This document shows positions 30,732-50,066 of a stretch of 64,000 bases of DNA, piece after piece. Position 1 is the stretch's first letter. Each line of letters starts with the position of its first letter. The position numbers and the translations under genes were made by a program. Source of the DNA: Malachius bipustulatus (lineage: Eukaryota; Arthropoda; Insecta; Coleoptera; Melyridae); contig OU342633.1 in the NCBI GenBank assembly GCA_910589415.1, forward strand, positions 16,530,858 to 16,594,857, written 5' to 3'. The notes beneath the pieces are model-generated. The model was not told the DNA's origin, ran no database searches, and was given only the letters and a program-made list of their open reading frames with translations.

Positions 30732-33700
30732 ATGTTACCAACAACCGATATGGAAGACGAGCGTAAAATTCTCTGTCGTTTTAAATCAGAGACAGGGGAG
30801 GTCCTAGGGGAAACCGACCTGCCACCAAACTGCACTGTCGACAATCTTTCTCTAATCTGCAATGCCCTTCTTCAAGAAGAAACCAGCGTTCCATATTTAT
30901 TCTTCATAAACGACACGGAAATCACAACAGACTTACAAAAAGCGCTAACTGCTTCCAAAGTAAGCACCGAAAGTGTAGTCGATATAATATACCAGCAGCA
31001 AGCCGTTTTTAAAGTACGTCCGGTAACACGATGCACAAGTTCCATGCCGGGCCATGCTGAAGCCGTTATCGTCACTAGCTTCAGTCCAGACGGAAAGCAC
31101 TTGGCTTCAGGATCAGGAGATACAACTGTCCGATTCTGGGATGTCTTGACCCAAACTCCACAGTTTACCTGTAACGGACATAAAAACTGGGTGCTATGTT
31201 TAGCTTGGTCTCCGGACAGTTCCAAAGTCGCTTCAGCTTGTAAAGACGGTAGAATAATAATATGGAATCCATTCAGTGGAGAACAGGTTGGGAAAACTAT
31301 GGTTGGACATAAGAAATGGGTCACTTCTTTGAGCTGGGAACCATATCATCAAAACCCTGAATGCAGGTTCGTACAACTTTCAATAATTATTATAAAAATT
31401 AGGGTCATTGTATCATTATACAGGCTGTCCGGAAATTATGAGCAAAAAATTAAGGGGGTGATTCTTCTTGATGAAATATTGCCAAAAGTATCAATAATTT
31501 TTTTTCGAAAACTCAAAAAGAAGAAAGTTATAAGCCTCCAAAGTTGATTTTTTTAAATCAATATTTTTTTATAACTTTTTTTCTAGTGTACGGATTTTCT
31601 TAAAATTTGACACACTTGTCACTGATGTTGCTTTACATCCTTGGTCCAAATTAGACTTGAATCCCTCGAAATCAAAAGGCCTTAACTGCCCTTGACCTTC
31701 AAAAAAGGCCTATAACTTTTTTCGTAATATTTTTTTCTGAGTTTTGAAGGCGCACAATTGAAGAACGTGAAGAAATATTCGGAAAAAGTCCTCTTTGTCT
31801 ATCACGATAAAATGACCCGTTTCCGAGTAAAACTGTTTTAAAAATTTTCCTGCACTAAAATTGATCACCATAAACTATGATCATTCTGCAACAACACCAA
31901 AGCATGCTTTGGAAACAGCTGCAGGATTGCCTAGTTATGTACAAAACAGAGACATTCGTATTATAAATAGACTGGAAATAATTTTTTTTTGAAAATGAAA
32001 AAAAATTTTAATCATTTTTTTTTTTAATAAAATAATAAAATAATAAAATAATTTTAATTAAAAAAAATAATAAATTGCTGTCAAAATGAAATCCAAAGCA
32101 AACGTCTTGTTTCCTAGGCAACCCTGCCACCGTTCCCAAAACATGCTTTGGTATTGTTGCAGAATGATCATAGTTTATGGTGATCAATTTTAGTGCAAGC
32201 AAATTTTTGAAACAGTTTTACTCGGAAGCAGGTCATTTTATCGTGATAGACAAAGAGGACCTTTTCCGATTATTTCTTCATGTTCTTCAATTGTGCGTCT
32301 TCAAAACTCAGAAAAAAATATTACGAAAAAAGTTATAGGCCTTTTTTGAAGGTCAAGGGCAGTTAAGGCCTTTTGATTTCGAGGGATTCAAGTCTAATTT
32401 GGACCAAGGATGTAAAGCAACATCAGTGGCAAGTGTGTCAAATTTTAAGAAAATCCGTACATTAGAAAAAAAGTTATAAAAAAATATTGATTTAAAAAAA
32501 TCAACTTTGGAGGCTTATAACTTTCTTCTTTTTGAGTTTTCGAAAAAAAATTATAGATACTTTTGGCAATATTTCATCAAGAAGAATCACCCCCTTAATT
32601 TTTTGCTCATAATTTCCGGACACCCTGTATGTATAATGAATTATTATAAGTATCCCTGAGTGTGAGTAGCGCCTAATATGCTATGGGTTATAACTATTTC
32701 GTTGCTCACTACAGGGACTTCGAAAACCTTAAAAGATATAGGGTCGGTCAAACTAGCAAAAAGTTGCTACATTTTCGTCTTCATATGTTGGTGAAAACAG
32801 ATCCGAAGTATATACACAGTTCACTTATTCTTATTATTATTTATAAACAATTAAGTTATAGTATAGTGTAGAGTGATGGAAATCACTGGATATGACTGCA
32901 GTCATTGCAGTGAAACAAATTGATATAATAATAAATTATTATATCAATTACAGCAATCCGATTGTTGAAAAACAATAATGCTTTCTGAACGACACATTTG
33001 CCCTAATGGTATGGTGAAGACACACTCTTCTGATCGGCACACTCCTCTAGTGGTGGTGATGAGACTCTAGACAGACTGATGAGATGGAAATGACCATTGA
33101 AACATCGATGTCTCTGTCTTCGCCATACCATTAGGGCAAATGTTTCGTTCAGAAAGCGTTATTGTCATTGCAGTGCGAAATTCCAACCTACTTATATATT
33201 TTTTTAGATATTTTGGCTTTCAGGTTACACGTTTGATTTTTTTAATCATGAAAGCCTTCCTCCTGAACGTTTTAAGAAACAATAACATCACTTATGCCCG
33301 GTTTCACGAACATAATTAAAAATCTCTCAGATAATCACCGATTTTGAAATGCCCATAATATTGTCAAAATATTGGTCTGCTATCGCTGGAAATAAATTAT
33401 ACTCCCTTTAGAAGAATTAATTACTGATAAAAAAATTAAAGATCATTTAATTTATTCATCGTATTTTCAAAATTTGCAATTTAAAATCAGTAATTATCTG
33501 AATAATTTTGAATTACTTTCGTGCAACCGGACCTTACAATCATAATAATTGTCACTCACTTATAGTCTGTCACAGTAAAAACCAAAAAATGATGAACAAT
33601 TGCAAACACAAATACTTACTCTTTGCGAATTAAATGAATATTGAAACGTGAAATGATGGAATTTCAATTTTCTAGCATTGTTCATTTAAAATGAGAATAA

Positions 33701-36700
33701 TTTTCATCCTTTTTTTAAGATCCAGGAGGAAGTCCTTTATCAATGCAAAATCAAAAGTGTATACGGTCATTATTTACATCCGGGTATCCTACAGTTTCAC
33801 TATGGCACCTATATCGATGGGTTTTTGACAAAACGTCGTAAGCGACAGAGAGTGCATTTTACAGGAATTGACTTTTTTAGGTAATTACTTTTACAGTAGA
33901 TTTAATTACCTCAAATACTTCCAAGTCATATTATTTTTGCAATATAAATTGATTCGGTGGTTAATATCAAAACAAATACATCATTTTGCACTAATTAGGT
34001 GACTTACCATTTTATCAGTATATCTTTTTTAGTGATTCGTCTCTTACGAATCTTACGATGCACATAAAATATAATGTCGGGGCGAAATACTGAACAAAAA
34101 CAAATAAATAATAAAAAAAAATCGAAAAAAAATAATAAAGAATCCACTTTTTAAATGATCTGAACTGAAACCTAATACTACTTTCTAATGTTCTTCATTT
34201 TTTTTCTCATCTTCCTCGTCAGTCTCACCTAAGGTATCTGGGATGTCACTGCTTCACTGCTGCCAATAAATGACTTGTATTCTTCCCAATATTGTTGGGG
34301 TATGATACATTTTTTGCAAAGCTCCATAAGATTCTTGAACTTTATTGACAATATTTCTAAAGGAGATGGGTATAAACTGTCAACAACTTTTGAAATTTTC
34401 TTTTTTCTTTTACCTAAAAACAAAAGAGCTCCTAAATATTGCAAATAAATCATTTCGCACTACCTTTACCTTTGGCCAATGGTCCATAAGAAATTGGCAG
34501 GGTAAACTCATCTGCAGAATCAGAATAGCAGTACTTTATTTTGATACAATCCTCGCCCTTTTTTCAAGTAAGCTATTTTAAGTTGGCTAATTTGAAAAGG
34601 ACGTCCTTCTTTCGTTTTGTTGAGAGTGTTAGGAATCAAGTTCTGTGATATGGTTTTCCAGTCTTTAAAGTCGAAGTGCTTCATAAGGACCACTTCAAAC
34701 GGTCCAGGATTAACCCTAGCATTGGCAATTATGGTAGCCCATTCTGAAGGTGACCAAATTATACGTTTCGAAATAAATCTGTCTATTGTAGCATGTACTG
34801 CATCAACGGGCATGTAAGTATGCTCAGGAAGTAGGAATACAATTTTTATATCAAGAATATTCTTAGATTCTTTGAGGAACGAATACAACATAGACAGCAT
34901 AGCTCTGTTCTTATTCTGTCCTGAGCAGCTCTCGCAATACAAACGGACTGTTTTGACACTTTTTCTTTCGTCAACAGTATCTAGGTACTTTTTAATAACT
35001 GTGCAGATTTCGTTCGAACCACGATTACCATCAACTTCGCCCCATAAATAACAAAAAGCGTTTTTTGTTCCACTTTCGTATACAGTTTCATTGTACATGG
35101 AGTACTTTCTTGAGTAATACAGCAGCATGTTGTCCCCATGAGGTGTGTTTAAGACCTTTTGGAGGTCGAAACTTGCACAAACTAATCCATCATCTTCCTT
35201 AGCTTCTTTTTGATCAGCAAGGAACAATTTCTTACACTCCTCTTTATGCTTGATGTGGTCTTCGTATTTTTCTATCTCGACCTCTGTGAATTTAATATCA
35301 CTATCTTTTCTTGATTCGCAAACAGTACACTTGTCTTTTTTGGGTAGATGAAACCCAAGGTTAAAAACTAAATTAAAGGTTAAATTAAATTAAAAAACTA
35401 AAGGTTAAAGATACCCTGGTTTTTCTATTATGATTTTCCAACTGATCCTTGACAAATATTCTATATAAGAAAGAAACATTTCTCATTTCAGCAGGCAAAT
35501 ATTTTTTTGTTGTACTGGCTCTGCAGTAGTGGGATGGAACGGCTGGTAGTTTCTTTATAAATTCGTGCACATATTCTTTGTCCTCGGGCTTCGTTTTGGG
35601 AGGTGGATCATGTTTCCCTCTTTTATTATCCTTGGCAAAAATTTCCGTGAAAGCATTGTTTTTTGTATAACATAGTGTCATTTGAGATATGCACAGCGTT
35701 TTTAAAAGAAACTGTTGGCAAACTTCATTTTCTTTCCCATCCCATGATATGAAGTATTTAAAGGTTCGTTTCCTTCTGCTGTCAATACTCTTCGTACGCC
35801 TTCGTTTAATGTCAACCTCCTTCATACACGATAAAAGCCACTCTTTCTGTCTCTGATAGCTGCTTAAGCCTCAGTAAAACTCAAAAATGTTATGCCGTTG
35901 CTGCTCTGTGAAATGTTTTGAACATGCATTTTGGCAAGCTTTGTTTTTACATGGATTTTCTTGCACTGATTTAGTAGCACCAAGACGCTTTTCAGTTTTT
36001 CTTGTTTCTTTTTTGTAAATTTTTTTAGGTTTCTGCAGGCTGGATTCTCCCACAGATTCTGTGAATTTTTCAAGGTTATCTTCACAATCGGAAGTCGATA
36101 AATAATAATCAGAGTTTTTATTTTCATGAAAAGAATAGTCTGAGTCAAATCTTTTAAATTTCTTGTTCTTGTGGCGAACGGTTGTTTCGAATGACTCTGA
36201 TTCTGAGCTAGATGAATAATCTACCAATCTCAATAAACCGACAGGGTTTTCATGTCTATCACAGTTTTTGACCTTATCCTCATGAAAAATGTAGGTAGGA
36301 GATCGGTTCAATCTTAAGGCATCAAACTTTTCCTCATTATTTTCGCTTTCTAGGAACACTACTGGCAGATTTTCTATATCAAAAGTTTCCAACGTTTCAT
36401 TACAAATTCCGAAGATGCTTTCATTGTTATAGGATGAACTTACAGAAACAGAATGCTTCAAGGAAGTTACAATATCAGCTTGTGAAGTATTTTGACCGTT
36501 GATTCCCCTTTATCAACATCACTAAAAATTATTTCGGGCCCATCTACTTGATTATTACTTTCCAGTTCTGAGTTTGGAACTTGTTCAGTTCCGAATAATA
36601 ACAGTTCTGAGGTATCTGTAGAATTGGTGAAATTTACCAGATCTACTTGATCATTTTTATCTACAAAGTTAGTAGTAACTTGAGAAGCTGTGGAATTTGA

Positions 36701-39316
36701 CAACTCTACATTATAATTTTTATGTTCGAGGCTAAAAGTGCCTTCAGCAGAATTAGTGGAATTATTTTGTTTCTGGTTTTCCTGAATTGCCATTAAGGCG
36801 ATTTTATAACCTCTTGAAGTACTTGATATTGCCGTCTAATAGCTTAAATAAAAAAAGGTTCTATAACCAGGGAACATAAAAGGGTTAATAAGACTTACCC
36901 AAATAATTAGAACACACAAATCACTCAATTCAATTGTTCAATAAGACTATTGTAGAGAACAAACACCTTTCGATTTCACTGGTAACAGGATTTAAGAAAA
37001 TTATTTGTATTCGTATTACGACCATATACACCAACCCTCGCATTCAAACTAACAGTTTAGCAGTTTACCATTCATTGTATTGATGAGAAAAGAAGGAAAC
37101 AGCACGTGGAAGCTGGGAGACGGGTAACGTAAGCGCCCAGCGCGCAATCGTAAGCGACGCAACTCCGCAGCGCTTAAGATTATTTGCCGGTAGTACTCTG
37201 GTGCTTACGATTATTTTTGGGTGAATTTCGTTGTTTATTTGAAAATACCGTTGGTTACGATAACAGAAAAGCTTAAAACAAACGAATAGCATGCGTTGAC
37301 AATGGTACAAAAGTTTGCAGGCACCTAGAGGTCAGCTCTGGGAATCGAATAGACCAAATAACCCAATTTTGATGTTTTTGTCGCTTACGACGTACCTATA
37401 GTAACACCAGGAAGGTATTCATTTGCTTTGCAAATGCATGGTTAGCCAAAAAAAAAAAAACGGCACTAAAAATAGGTTTTCGAATTGCGGTCTTGGCTAG
37501 AATCGCGGATAATCACATTATAAATACGACGGGTCTGGGAAGTAACAACTTGACGACAAGGCCAACTGCCTCGAAGCGTACAGAGCAGGACCCGCATTAT
37601 ATCCGCTTTCTCATACTTCTTTACTTCTGTCTTCCTTACTATACTTCAGCTTTCACCAGTCACTTCCAGGATACTACTGCCGCACGCAGCCATACGGCGG
37701 CCCGTATATAGTCCCCCGACGCATCATCGAAACAGTAGACACATTCTCCTAGATTGCAGAACTCACACTGGCCGTCAAACGTCATTCCAAAGACATGCGA
37801 CTGGAATTGTCGCGAACGTGTCATTGACTAACCCATATAAAAAAATATATATAAACAAACAAAATGGTGAACTAGAATGTTAAAGAAAACAACTAATAGA
37901 ACTTTTCCAGAGTGATCTCGTTATACTGTCCCCCTTCTATTTTTGAGCGTCTCGTTTCTCCAAATCTGCTAATTAAATTATCCACCAAGCCTCTCGCAAC
38001 TGTAGCAGCTTCTTGGTTCGGTATGGCGTATGCTTCAAGCCACTTGCTGAAATAATCCATGGCAACCAGGATAAAGCGGGTGCCGCTGTCGCTGATTGGA
38101 AAAGGACTTGCTACGTCTATGGCTATCCCCTCAAATGGGACTCCGACGTTGTACTGCTTCATAGCACCTGTCGTCCTTCAAATTCTACTTGTAATTTTTA
38201 CTGTCATACTGTGCGATGTTACAACACAGCATAATCTAATATGACCTTGGTAGAATATTTAGAAAAAAATCCAAGCTGCCAGTTCATGAAATAACCATAA
38301 AAAACTAAAAATATCGTGTTTTTGTTTGTCAAACTTCTTTTTTTATGATAGTAATGTAAGAAAACCTTTAGAAGCATTTAATTTTTCATTAAGGCTACTC
38401 AAGATCAGAAAATAAGAAAAACAAGTTTTCATATTATTAGAACTCATAGTACATTCTCTTTAAAAAATAAATCAAATGTTTCAATTTAGTGATTCAATAT
38501 TATCATTTCAGATATCTGGCAAGTTCCTCGAAAGATGGCGATGTGAGAATATGGGACACAGTTCTCTGCAGCACCATTTTAACTTTATCTGGACATACAA
38601 AAAGTATAAGTCAAGTAAAATGGGGTGGTCAAGGACTAGTCTACACGGCATCACAAGACAGAACTGTGAAAGTGTGGCGAGCAAAAGATGGAATTCTTTG
38701 TCGTACATTAGAAGGCCATGCTCATTGGGTCAACACTTTGGCTTTAAACACAGACTACATTCTTAAAATTGGAGCTTTTGATCCTGTGAAGGACTCCAAT
38801 ATTGATACTTCATGTCCTGATAAAAAGAAGTCACAAGCGTTTGCTTTAGAGAGGTATAAGGGCGTTGTCGAGTCAATCGGTGAAAGATTAGTGTCCGGTT
38901 CAGATGATTTTACTTTGTTTTTATGGAATCCGGAGCAAGACAAAAAACCTATAGCTAGGTTGACCGGGCATCAGCAGCTGGTTAATGATGTGAAATTTTC
39001 ACCAGACAGCCGAATTTTTGCTTCAGCGTCGTTTGACAAATCAATCAAACTTTGGGAAACGAAAACTGGAAAATTTATTGCAACTTTAAGAGGACACGTT
39101 CAGGCAGTTTATTTATTGGCTTTCTCTGCCGATTCTAGGTTATTAGTGAGTGCCAGTGCAGATTCGACTTTGAAAGTGTGGAATTTGCAGAAAAAGAAAC
39201 TGGAATTTGACTTACCAGGACATGCTGATGAAGTGTACGCTGTTGATTGGTCAACTGATGGGTTAAGGGTAGCTTCGGGAGGGAAAGATAAAGTTTTGAA
39301 ATTGTGGCAAAATTAA
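30732..39316 (+). CDS. NLE1: Notchless homologue (NLE1/Rsa4), exons 30732-31366 and 38512-39316
   Basis: Ribosome assembly factor of nucleolus and nucleoplasm; in yeast and mammals the Rsa4/NLE1 family links pre-60S particles to the AAA+ remodelling ATPase Rea1/MDN1. Splicing AG|A in phase 2 at GCAG|GTTCGT and TTTCAG|ATATCT gives 479 residues, close to the usual 480-510. Residues about 12-78 are the NLE/ubiquitin-like domain. Glu63 in FINDTEI sits where family members coordinate the MDN1 MIDAS ion. Eight WD40 repeats follow (SGSGDTTVRFWD, ASSSKDGDVRIWD, TASQDRTVKVW, SGSDDFTLFLW, SASFDKSIKLW, SASADSTLKVW, SGGKDKVLKLW). The splice falls inside the third repeat. AATAAA lies 29 nt after the stop. 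The gene looks intact despite a transposon-filled intron. Confidence 0.95.
31417..32632. mobile_element. Foldback element with TATACAGG-TGTCC ends
   Basis: The ends (TATACAGGCTGTCCGGAAAT and complement) and about 550 bp inward are inverted copies, around an AT-rich loop near 31975-32085. Noncoding; fits mariner-type MITE ends. In the NLE pre-mRNA it would form a long double strand, a possible ADAR or Dicer substrate. Confidence 0.82.
32901..33175 (+). mobile_element. Small hammerhead-bearing repeat
   Basis: A 12-bp direct repeat GTCATTGCAGTG (32901-32912, 33164-33175) flanks it. 51-nt inverted arms (32972-33022, 33115-33165) with three mismatches enclose the ribozyme. The size and layout resemble a retrozyme-like or SINE-like unit; the class is uncertain. 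Confidence 0.55.
33069..33119 (+). ncRNA. Hammerhead ribozyme, sense orientation in NLE intron
   Basis: All invariant core positions are present. CTGATGA is at 33076-33082 and GAA at 33099-33101, with A15.1 at 33102. The cleavage triplet is GTC at 33110-33112. Stem I is 7 perfect pairs (33069-33075 with 33113-33119). Stem II is 5 pairs (33083-33087 with 33094-33098, the first G.U) with a 6-nt loop. Stem III is ACATC/GATGT with no loop, so cleavage may need a dimer, as described for minimal retrotransposon hammerheads. Predicted cut after C33112. It lies on the strand transcribed as NLE pre-mRNA. Confidence 0.8.
33176..33832. other. Intronic DNA without identified features
   Basis: AT-rich; 33790-33812 matches 16380-16410 inverted. 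Nothing else is seen. Confidence 0.4.
33833..37393 (-). mobile_element. DNA transposon with ACGTCGTAAGCGACA inverted ends and DUF7869-type protein
   Basis: A perfect 15-bp inverted repeat (33833-33847, 37379-37393) brackets the broken coding region on the minus strand. The internal right flank 37100-37230 repeats the same core (CGTAAGCG, CGTAAGCGAC, GCTTACGATTA), and the left flank has CTTACGA copies near 34050-34060. Such subterminal repeats commonly bind transposase. No clear target duplication is visible. The link between this protein family and these ends is inference from position. Confidence 0.6.
34200..36793 (-). pseudogene. DUF7869-type transposase-like protein, decayed
   Basis: Pieces at 36467-36793, 35871-36461, 35385-35825, about 34520-35355 and 34200-34453 read collinearly as one protein. 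The N-terminal half is acidic and low complexity, then a Cys-rich patch (NPCKNKACQNACSKHF). The conserved C-terminal domain has ASFDLQKVLNTPHGDN, FCYLWGEVDGNRGSNEI, LYCESCSGQNKNRAML and HTYMPVDAVHATIDRF, the signature of a repetitive insect family annotated as DUF7869. Breaks: a frameshift in a G run near 36507, a stop near 35860, an AT-rich insertion near 35345-35410, and frameshifts near 34535 and 34450. A DDE-like role is suspected but unproven. Confidence 0.7.
37490..37925 (-). repeat. LTR fragment (same family as 16457-19978)
   Basis: Shares CACGCAGCCATACGGCGGC, TAGTCCCCCGACGC, TTGCAGAACTCACAC and the TATAACG start with the LTR at 16457-19978. It shows the uninterrupted GCAGAACTCAC site where that copy took its insertion. 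The far half has diverged. Confidence 0.65.
37926..38162 (-). pseudogene. Gypsy integrase fragment fused to polypurine tract
   Basis: The minus strand encodes MKQYNVGVPFEGIAIDVASP, then TRFILVAMDYFSKWLEAYAI and GLVDNLISRFG, the start of a gypsy integrase catalytic core with its first Asp. It runs straight into an AAAATAGAAGGGGGACAG polypurine tract (37926-37943) and the LTR. The rest of integrase was removed by an internal deletion. Upstream frame traces continue weakly to about 38240. Confidence 0.65.
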
Positions 39317-49139: not shown

Positions 49140-49311
49140 TGTAATGTTCTTATTTAATTAAGATGATTATTAATATATGTTTTATTATTTAAACTAGGTA
49201 AATTACATAAATAAAAGGTAACACTTTACGAGCATGACGTTGGGTCGGAACTGTGTTATAGAACTGACAAAATGGCGTTATTGCCAAGGTTACCAAATCA
49301 CATACGTCACA
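49140..49311 (-). repeat. Outer element 5' LTR (172 bp)
   Basis: Same sequence as 39640-39811; very short for a gypsy LTR. Flanked by AGAGC. Confidence 0.9.
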
Positions 49312-49335
49312 AGAGCCAACCAGAGTACCAGAACA

Positions 49336-49379
49336 AGCACAGACACGTGTTTCGCCCTACTGGGGCTCATCAGTGTGCT
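49336..49379 (-). ncRNA. Hammerhead ribozyme in retroposon copy 1
   Basis: On the minus strand: CTGATGA (complement of 49367-49373), stem II GCCC/GGGC with loop CAGTA, then GAAAC, and stem III ACAC/GTGT with no loop. The cleavage triplet is GTC (complement of 49342-49344). Stem I is six perfect pairs (49374-49379 with 49336-49341). Every core base is conserved. The loopless stem III suggests dimer-dependent activity. Confidence 0.8.
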
Positions 49380-49591
49380 GCATCCGGAGTATCTGGAGTA
49401 TTTTAAAGGATGCGTGGATGCCCGGGCCCTCTTTAAGCGGCCTGTTACACGGTTCTCCGTGTGGTGTAAAGTAGAGCGACATCTAGCGGTCAGTCTAAAG
49501 AACTAACCGTGAGTTCACTCCAAGTTTATTAAAGTTTCAGACACCACCAAATGCCAGACGATTGACAATCATAAATAAGAGAAAAAAGCTG

Positions 49592-49627
49592 ACCTGACCT
49601 GACCCGACCTGACCTGACCTGACCTAC
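49592..49627. repeat. (CTGAC)n pentanucleotide repeat
   Basis: About seven units with one CCGAC variant, between the two retroposon copies. Confidence 0.85.
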
Positions 49628-50066
49628 CTTCTTTTATTTATTTATTAATCGTTGAGTATACTTGCCTTTTTCTCTTATTCATGATTGTCAATCGTCTGGC
49701 ATTTGGTGGTGTCTGAAACTGTAATAAACTTGGAGTGAACTCACGGTTAGTTCTTTAGACTGACCGCTAGATGTCGCTCTTCTTTACACCACAAGGAGAA
49801 CCGTGTAACAGGCCGCTTTGAGAGGGCCCGGGCATCCACGTATCCTTTAACATCCTCCAGAAACTCCGGATGCAACACACTGATGAGCCCCAGTAGGGCA
49901 AAACACATGTCTGTGCTTGTTCTGGTTGGCTCTGTTTTTGGATGTGTGGAAGCTCTCTCGATTGGAGTTTCAAGCACTTCCAGCATGGCAACTGTAATGG
50001 GTGATGGTGGAAACTCTGACCCCACCTAACAGGCTAGTAAATGCACTTTATACTCATAGGACCTAC
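49620..50066 (-). mobile_element. Hammerhead-bearing retroposon, copy 2 (inverted)
   Basis: Inverted relative to copy 1 and about 447 bp. The minus strand ends with a TAATAAATAAATAAAAG tail like a LINE-mobilised retroposon. TACCTTCTTTTATTTATT occurs at both 49623 and 50066. A 92-codon frame (49747-50025, minus) is also partly open in copy 1, but shows no domain and is probably fortuitous. The ribozyme lies on the strand opposite the tail. Confidence 0.6.
49874..49916 (+). ncRNA. Degenerate hammerhead in retroposon copy 2
   Basis: CTGATGA (49880-49886), stem II and GTC are kept, but GAAA has become AAAA (G12 lost at 49900), one stem III pair is broken, and stem I keeps only four pairs. Probably inactive. 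Confidence 0.65.

Follow-up and report, generated by a model that had tools for sequence, protein, structure and literature searches.

The question raised by this locus is whether a complete hammerhead motif within an intron of a beetle gene belongs to that gene as a self-cleaving ribozyme, was brought in by a mobile element or arose by coincidence. The locus is part of the genome of Malachius bipustulatus (assembly GCA_910589415.1, contig OU342633.1), of which a stretch of 64 kb, referred to as the window, was analysed.

Sequence anatomy of the hammerhead motif

The motif, HHR1, is of type I, occupies positions 33069-33119 (+) and is predicted to be cleaved after C33112. All of its parts are located on the (+) strand. 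The 5' strand of stem I, AGACAGA (33069-33075), is followed by the core CUGAUGA (CTGATGA in DNA; 33076-33082), the stem II hairpin GATGG/CCATT with the loop AAAUGA (33083-33098), the core GAA (33099-33101), the stem III palindrome ACAUCGAUGU, i.e., ACATC/GATGT (33102-33111), C17 (33112) and the 3' strand of stem I, UCUGUCU, which forms 7 bp with AGACAGA (33113-33119). All features that define type I are present, namely the CUGANGA and GAA core, A15.1-U16.1 and H17, and by the descriptor the three helices, with the open end at stem I, comprise 7, 5 (one G-U) and 5 bp.

The earlier note on this DNA had described a complete motif with every core base and a 7-bp stem I, which is confirmed in the sequence. 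The 5-bp stem II of that description does have five pairs, but the innermost one (10.1-11.1) is a G-U wobble; G10.1 and C11.1 are termed conserved positions in PMC2837043. In case of the 5-bp self-complementary stem III, the palindrome stands, but it has no loop, and therefore one molecule keeps only three pairs, around a UCGA loop. Pairing of all ten bases requires two molecules, i.e., dimerisation, which the palindrome allows.

Both strands of the 64 kb were scanned with a descriptor consisting of CTGANGA, GAA, A15.1-U16.1, a non-G at position 17 and three stems. Two sites were found, HHR1, with stems I/II/III of 7, 5 and 5 bp, and 49342-49373 (-), with 6, 4 and 4 bp. Two matches to the simpler pattern CTGATGAG-N6..30-GAAA occur in the window, compared to 0.20 expected.

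The host intron

HHR1 is situated in a GT..AG intron of NLE (Notchless) of 7,145 nt (31367-38511 (+)), across which the reading frame is open. According to Pfam, the upstream exon encodes the NLE domain PF08154 and WD40 repeats and the downstream exon WD40 repeats. The downstream exon matched 1,884 homologues, and among the best 120 of them the top-scoring named ones are from beetles, with at most 84% identity. The motif is in sense orientation relative to NLE, and its placement in the earlier note, on the sense strand of an NLE intron, is thus correct. Between the predicted cleavage site and the 5' and 3' splice sites there are 1,746 and 5,399 nt of intron, respectively. The same intron also contains a DUF7869 ORF (34520-35389 (-)) and a second, MITE-like inverted repeat (33298-33352/33476-33530, 55 nt, 80%) with CCGG ends. 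Around HHR1, between 31548 and 34519, there is no ORF of at least 110 aa.

In the literature searched, as far as the texts were available, no hammerhead in Notchless surfaced, and co-mentions of Notchless and ribozymes appear to concern ribosomes. There is no evidence for a role of HHR1 in the regulation of NLE.

Inverted repeat and direct repeat around HHR1

HHR1 forms the tip of a long inverted repeat with arms of 51 nt that are 94% complementary. The left arm L (32972-33022 (+)) competes with its AGACA end for stem I, and the right arm R (33115-33165 (+)) overlaps the 3' strand of stem I. The hairpin of 225 nt has a predicted energy of -108.5 kcal/mol (z -12.1). The middle segment M (33023-33068 (+)) is complementary to R, too. 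The M/R duplex reaches -31.5 kcal/mol, compared to means of -16.9 (sd 3.6) with shuffled R and -16.1 (sd 3.0) with shuffled M, and in either series 2 of 2,000 shuffles were as low. Due to the pairing of M with R, HHR1 has an extended stem I, and since both L and M pair with R, L represents a second, better partner for that strand.

A 12-bp exact repeat, GTCATTGCAGTG, occurs at 32901-32912 (+) and 33164-33175 (+), the right copy overlapping the last two bases of R. No other exact repeat of 9-14 nt is shared by the compared flanks 32750-32975 and 33150-33230, and the 12-mer possibly represents a target-site duplication that bounds an insertion of 251 bp (32913-33163); the size of the element is 251 bp only if the repeats do bound it. 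As the left copy falls within a local palindrome and is separated from L by 59 nt, the interpretation as a target-site duplication may be wrong. The presumed insertion also contains a palindrome of 15 perfect base pairs, closed by a loop of 2 nt, at 32918-32949 (+). Judged by eye, a flip of 32901-32971 about this palindrome would put CACTGCAATGAC beside L and extend L.

Chance occurrence and covariance models

In dinucleotide shuffles of the whole window, 16 of 1,500 sequences contained any motif at the minimum stem lengths of 3/3/4 bp, and none of the 1,500 contained one at minimum lengths of 4/4/6 bp. Because HHR1 caps an inverted repeat, the loop alone was shuffled as well, with the arms kept fixed. 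Any motif was then obtained in 124 of 3,406,614 shuffles, the best with a score of 16, compared to 17 for HHR1, which is the maximum possible. Given the outcome of both shuffle tests, chance is a poor explanation, and a purely accidental origin is rejected. The HHR1 motif is beyond chance in sequence and has a complete catalytic core.

The loop shuffles also bear on the possibility that the locus is a foldback, MITE-like DNA element, the hairpin tip of which resembles a hammerhead by chance while stem I comes for free with the inverted repeat. The near-perfect 51-nt arms, the other inverted repeat in the intron (33298-33530) and the lack of Rfam acceptance of the motif agree with such an element, but none of the loops shuffled between the preserved arms scored like HHR1. 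Furthermore, the short duplication that directly flanks the terminal inverted repeats of MITEs is lacking at the arms 32972-33022/33115-33165, the flanks of which differ by eye. A foldback origin therefore appears unlikely.

The earlier note had proposed a comparison with the Rfam hammerhead models, and this did not return an accepted hammerhead. In the whole window no covariance model matched at the gathering threshold, and in 351 nt around HHR1 no hammerhead family was reported at E<=10. With 59 nt containing HHR1, the sole hammerhead match was RAGATH-1-hammerhead with 13.4 bits (E 2.5; gathering 56.3). The status of a hammerhead certified by Rfam is accordingly rejected for HHR1, since nothing reaches gathering and RAGATH-1 stays below its threshold. 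The same tool does score the second hammerhead of the window, described below.

A second hammerhead in the window and the search for relatives

HHR2, at 49336-49379 (-), matches RF00163 with 33.6 bits, just under the gathering threshold of 34 (E 7.1e-7 for a query of 301 nt), and thus scores better than HHR1, from which it is 16 kb away. Its stem III is, like that of HHR1, a loopless palindrome, here of 8 nt. HHR2 is carried by a repeat of which the window contains an inverted pair of copies. These agree at 94.7% over 263 bp and, on the far side of an inserted LTR retrotransposon that is flanked by GCTCT at either end, at 82% over a further part. In the other copy, near 49880-49915 (+), A replaces G12. 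Due to this repeat-borne HHR2, the existence of hammerhead repeats in this genome is established. In a comparison of the HHR1 and HHR2 loci, no match at E<=10 was listed.

The retrotransposon inserted in the HHR2 repeat has identical LTRs of 172 bp (39640-39811/49140-49311), and nested in it is an LTR-like direct pair (40772-41088/45331-45647, 99.7%). The spacer that separates the two inverted copies of the HHR2 repeat contains a GGTCA tandem repeat at about 49590-49628. In both HHR2 copies (49300-49380 (-) and 49883 onwards (+)) the AUG of the core opens a hydrophobic frame, MSPSRAKH..SVLVLV, which stops after 26 codons, where it enters the LTR, and after 48 codons, respectively. An ORF that starts inside the hammerhead is described for a lizard Penelope element (PMC11167929). 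In case of HHR1, such a start is rejected, since by eye the frame opened by the ATG of the core closes after 4 codons.

When 32860-33200 was compared to the window, the region recovered, apart from the self-match, only its inverted counterpart and short matches, and no second copy of the element. A 20-mer of the arms occurs in one viral contig, where the match extends over 22 nt and the sequence on either side is dissimilar; it is taken as chance and not as a relative of HHR1. The pattern CTGATGAG..GAAACATCGATGTC was found neither in viral nor in prokaryote contigs and CTGATGAG..GAAACACGTGTC not in viral contigs, i.e., the patterns yielded no relatives of HHR1 among viral or prokaryote contigs.

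Folding of monomer, full hairpin and dimer

The energies given here exclude hammerhead tertiary contacts and Mg2+. The short HHR1 stretch is unremarkable in stability, both with 63 nt (z -1.31; 19 of 200 shuffles equally stable) and with 53 nt (z -2.18; 7 of 200), and its minimum-energy fold differs from the hammerhead. The active fold costs 4.9 kcal/mol in the 53-mer, 7.8 kcal/mol with M and R (33023-33165) and 10.8 kcal/mol with L, M and R (32966-33170). In a transcript growing from 32966, the cost amounts to 5.3 kcal/mol at 33119, 6.5 at 33122 and 10.8 at 33126. It climbs to this value because L takes the 3' strand of stem I, from which it captures five bases (AGACA/UGUCU). When L is left out, another fold is still preferred to the active one.

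As a control for these costs, 51 viral loci (L001-L051) were used, of which 11 passed a similar descriptor and provided 23 distinct motifs, all of them sequence matches and none a proven ribozyme. The 40 loci failing the descriptor, 39 of which had been picked by a hammerhead-like pattern, were dropped. The active fold costs less than 1 kcal/mol in 19 of the 23 motifs, 1.05 and 1.87 kcal/mol in two and 4.55 kcal/mol in the remaining two; the motifs of the window cost 4.29 (HHR2) and 4.9 kcal/mol (HHR1). With other ends, HHR2 costs 6.2 (48 nt) or 3.9 kcal/mol (111 nt). Judged by the modelled energies, HHR1 probably has little or no activity as a monomer and is probably mostly held in an inactive shape at its present site.

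A different picture is obtained for two molecules. The double hammerhead of HHR1 (-35.1 kcal/mol) is nearly equal in energy to the best dimer fold (-35.2) and lower than two monomers (-27.0), and the corresponding values of HHR2 are -36.3, -36.6 and -33.0 kcal/mol. The resemblance to dimer-forming hammerheads of retroelements, which the earlier note had pointed out, is supported.

Considering the competition of L and M for R, L might be a built-in off-switch that permits cleavage only in multimers or once L has been displaced. The capture of AGACA/UGUCU by L, with the increase in cost from 7.8 to 10.8 kcal/mol between 33023-33165 and 32966-33170, and the complementarity of M itself to R speak for this idea, but the element is a single copy, the L arm of which may have arisen recently as an inverted duplicate during insertion, the active fold is unfavoured without L as well, and tertiary contacts and Mg2+ do not enter the energies. 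We regard a switch of this kind as improbable. Similarly doubtful is its extension to a beetle family of hammerhead retroelements of about 250 bp, in which the competition of M and L for one 3' arm would act as a conformational switch, off in a single intronic copy and on in multimers or in dimers via the palindromic stem III.

Self-cleavage of the NLE pre-mRNA after 33112 during transcription, altering splicing or output or releasing intronic RNA, as suggested in the earlier note, is compatible with the sense orientation, the complete core, the 5,399 nt of intron yet to be transcribed past the site, a cost of only 5.3-6.5 kcal/mol until base 33122 is made and the conserved intronic hammerheads of human C10orf118 and RECK that cleave in vitro (PMC3088659), but it is very improbable in view of the 10.8 kcal/mol from base 33126 on, the 3-bp monomeric stem III, the G-U at 10.1-11.1, the lack of Rfam acceptance and the expectation that large databases hold chance fits to the consensus, some of them unable to fold (PMC3088659). 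With the active fold disfavoured by about 5 (local) to about 11 kcal/mol (full hairpin), an effect on splicing finds no support, and the inverted repeat, the 12-bp direct repeat and the repeat-borne HHR2 16 kb away point to a mobile element instead of a part of the gene.

Origin of HHR1

We consider it fairly likely that HHR1 is a hammerhead by descent, the relic of a small non-coding hammerhead retroelement that was inserted in sense into the NLE intron and has low activity as a monomer. This reading is based on the full core, the shuffles, the inverted repeat with HHR1 at its tip, the pairing of M with R, the 12-bp repeat, HHR2, the dimer energies and the reports on animal type I hammerheads cited below. 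The lack of a match at gathering level in Rfam, the single copy, the lack of a listed match between the HHR1 and HHR2 loci, the lone hammerhead, the weak stem III and the offset of the direct repeat from L count against it.

According to the retroelement reading, an element of about 251 bp (32913-33163, between the 12-bp direct repeats) would have been inserted in the sense direction of NLE, and its RNA would form a long rod with the ribozyme at the tip, on the stem I extended by M and R. Cleavage after C33112 would require stem III, which would consist of 3 bp in one molecule and involve all ten bases in the double hammerhead of two molecules. L, an extra, near-perfect arm in this copy, would pair with R and remove five bases of the 3' strand of stem I. 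Since L occupies R and these stem I bases, a single intronic transcript is expected to be mostly inactive and to be spliced away.

HHR1 may be an unreported beetle hammerhead element. Type I hammerheads of insects in general have been reported already (PMC7229834), and in a beetle-satellite paper with a hammerhead co-mention the word occurs in the reference list only. HHR1 offers a clean case of a ribozyme that seems to require a dimer but occurs as a single copy within a pre-mRNA, and it raises the question whether inverted arms silence a ribozyme.

Comparison with known hammerhead systems

As far as the cited passages go, most classical animal type I hammerheads are located in small retroelements, with target-site duplications, when present, of more than 4 bp (PMC7229834). 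The metazoan non-LTR retrozymes of the same report share with HHR1 the type I layout, a direct repeat of more than 4 bp, a highly self-paired RNA and possibly the location in a small non-coding element (approximately 170-400 nt). The HHR1 element, provided that the 12-bp repeats bound it, would fall with 251 bp into the retrozyme size class of 150-450 bp, and the exact 12-bp repeat, a possible target-site duplication of more than 4 bp, is placed asymmetrically about the arms. In contrast to retrozymes in tandem copies, the HHR1 insertion has one motif, with no tandem or dimeric unit seen, and unlike retrozymes it has long, near-perfect inverted arms. Most invertebrate retrozyme hammerheads are described as having a stable helix III and cleaving as monomers (PMC7761336), whereas stem III of HHR1 is a loopless palindrome.

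Two more distant cases are found in a satellite and in vertebrate introns. The satellite pDo500 of Dolichopoda cave crickets (PMC2837043) is, like HHR1, an insect repeat with a hammerhead, for which a double hammerhead has been proposed; it differs as a tandem satellite of 500 bp in 12 species from the single, dispersed HHR1. The vertebrate RECK and C10orf118 hammerheads (PMC3088659) are likewise intronic and thought to descend from a hammerhead-bearing repeat; for these, conservation and cleavage in vitro are reported, whereas HHR1 is a putative ribozyme.

Minimal hammerheads of Penelope-like elements and Terminons as well as RAGATH-1 resemble HHR1 in a weak stem III that perhaps needs dimers (PMC7761336, PMC6466107, PMC11167929). 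In case of RAGATH-1, the likeness consists of the sub-threshold match of 13.4 bits. Minimal hammerheads may act as dimers and are, as HHR1, mostly dispersed in non-coding DNA (PMC7761336); dimer action in eukaryotes is also said to need a tandem arrangement in addition to a palindromic stem III (PMC6466107). In vitro insertion of the lizard Penelope element did not depend on cleavage, and RNA ends at the site were not found (PMC11167929). An ORF with reverse transcriptase and GIY-YIG, typical of Penelope-like elements, is not situated beside HHR1 among ORFs of at least 110 aa, and GIY-YIG was absent among the Pfam families listed for 7 of the 41 listed ORFs. The variable part of helix III is usually missing in the minimal forms, whereas HHR1 has a palindrome of 10 nt. 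Taken as an animal type I hammerhead with a weak, palindromic stem III, the element would have its nearest counterparts in the minimal hammerheads of Penelope-like elements and in the retrozymes.
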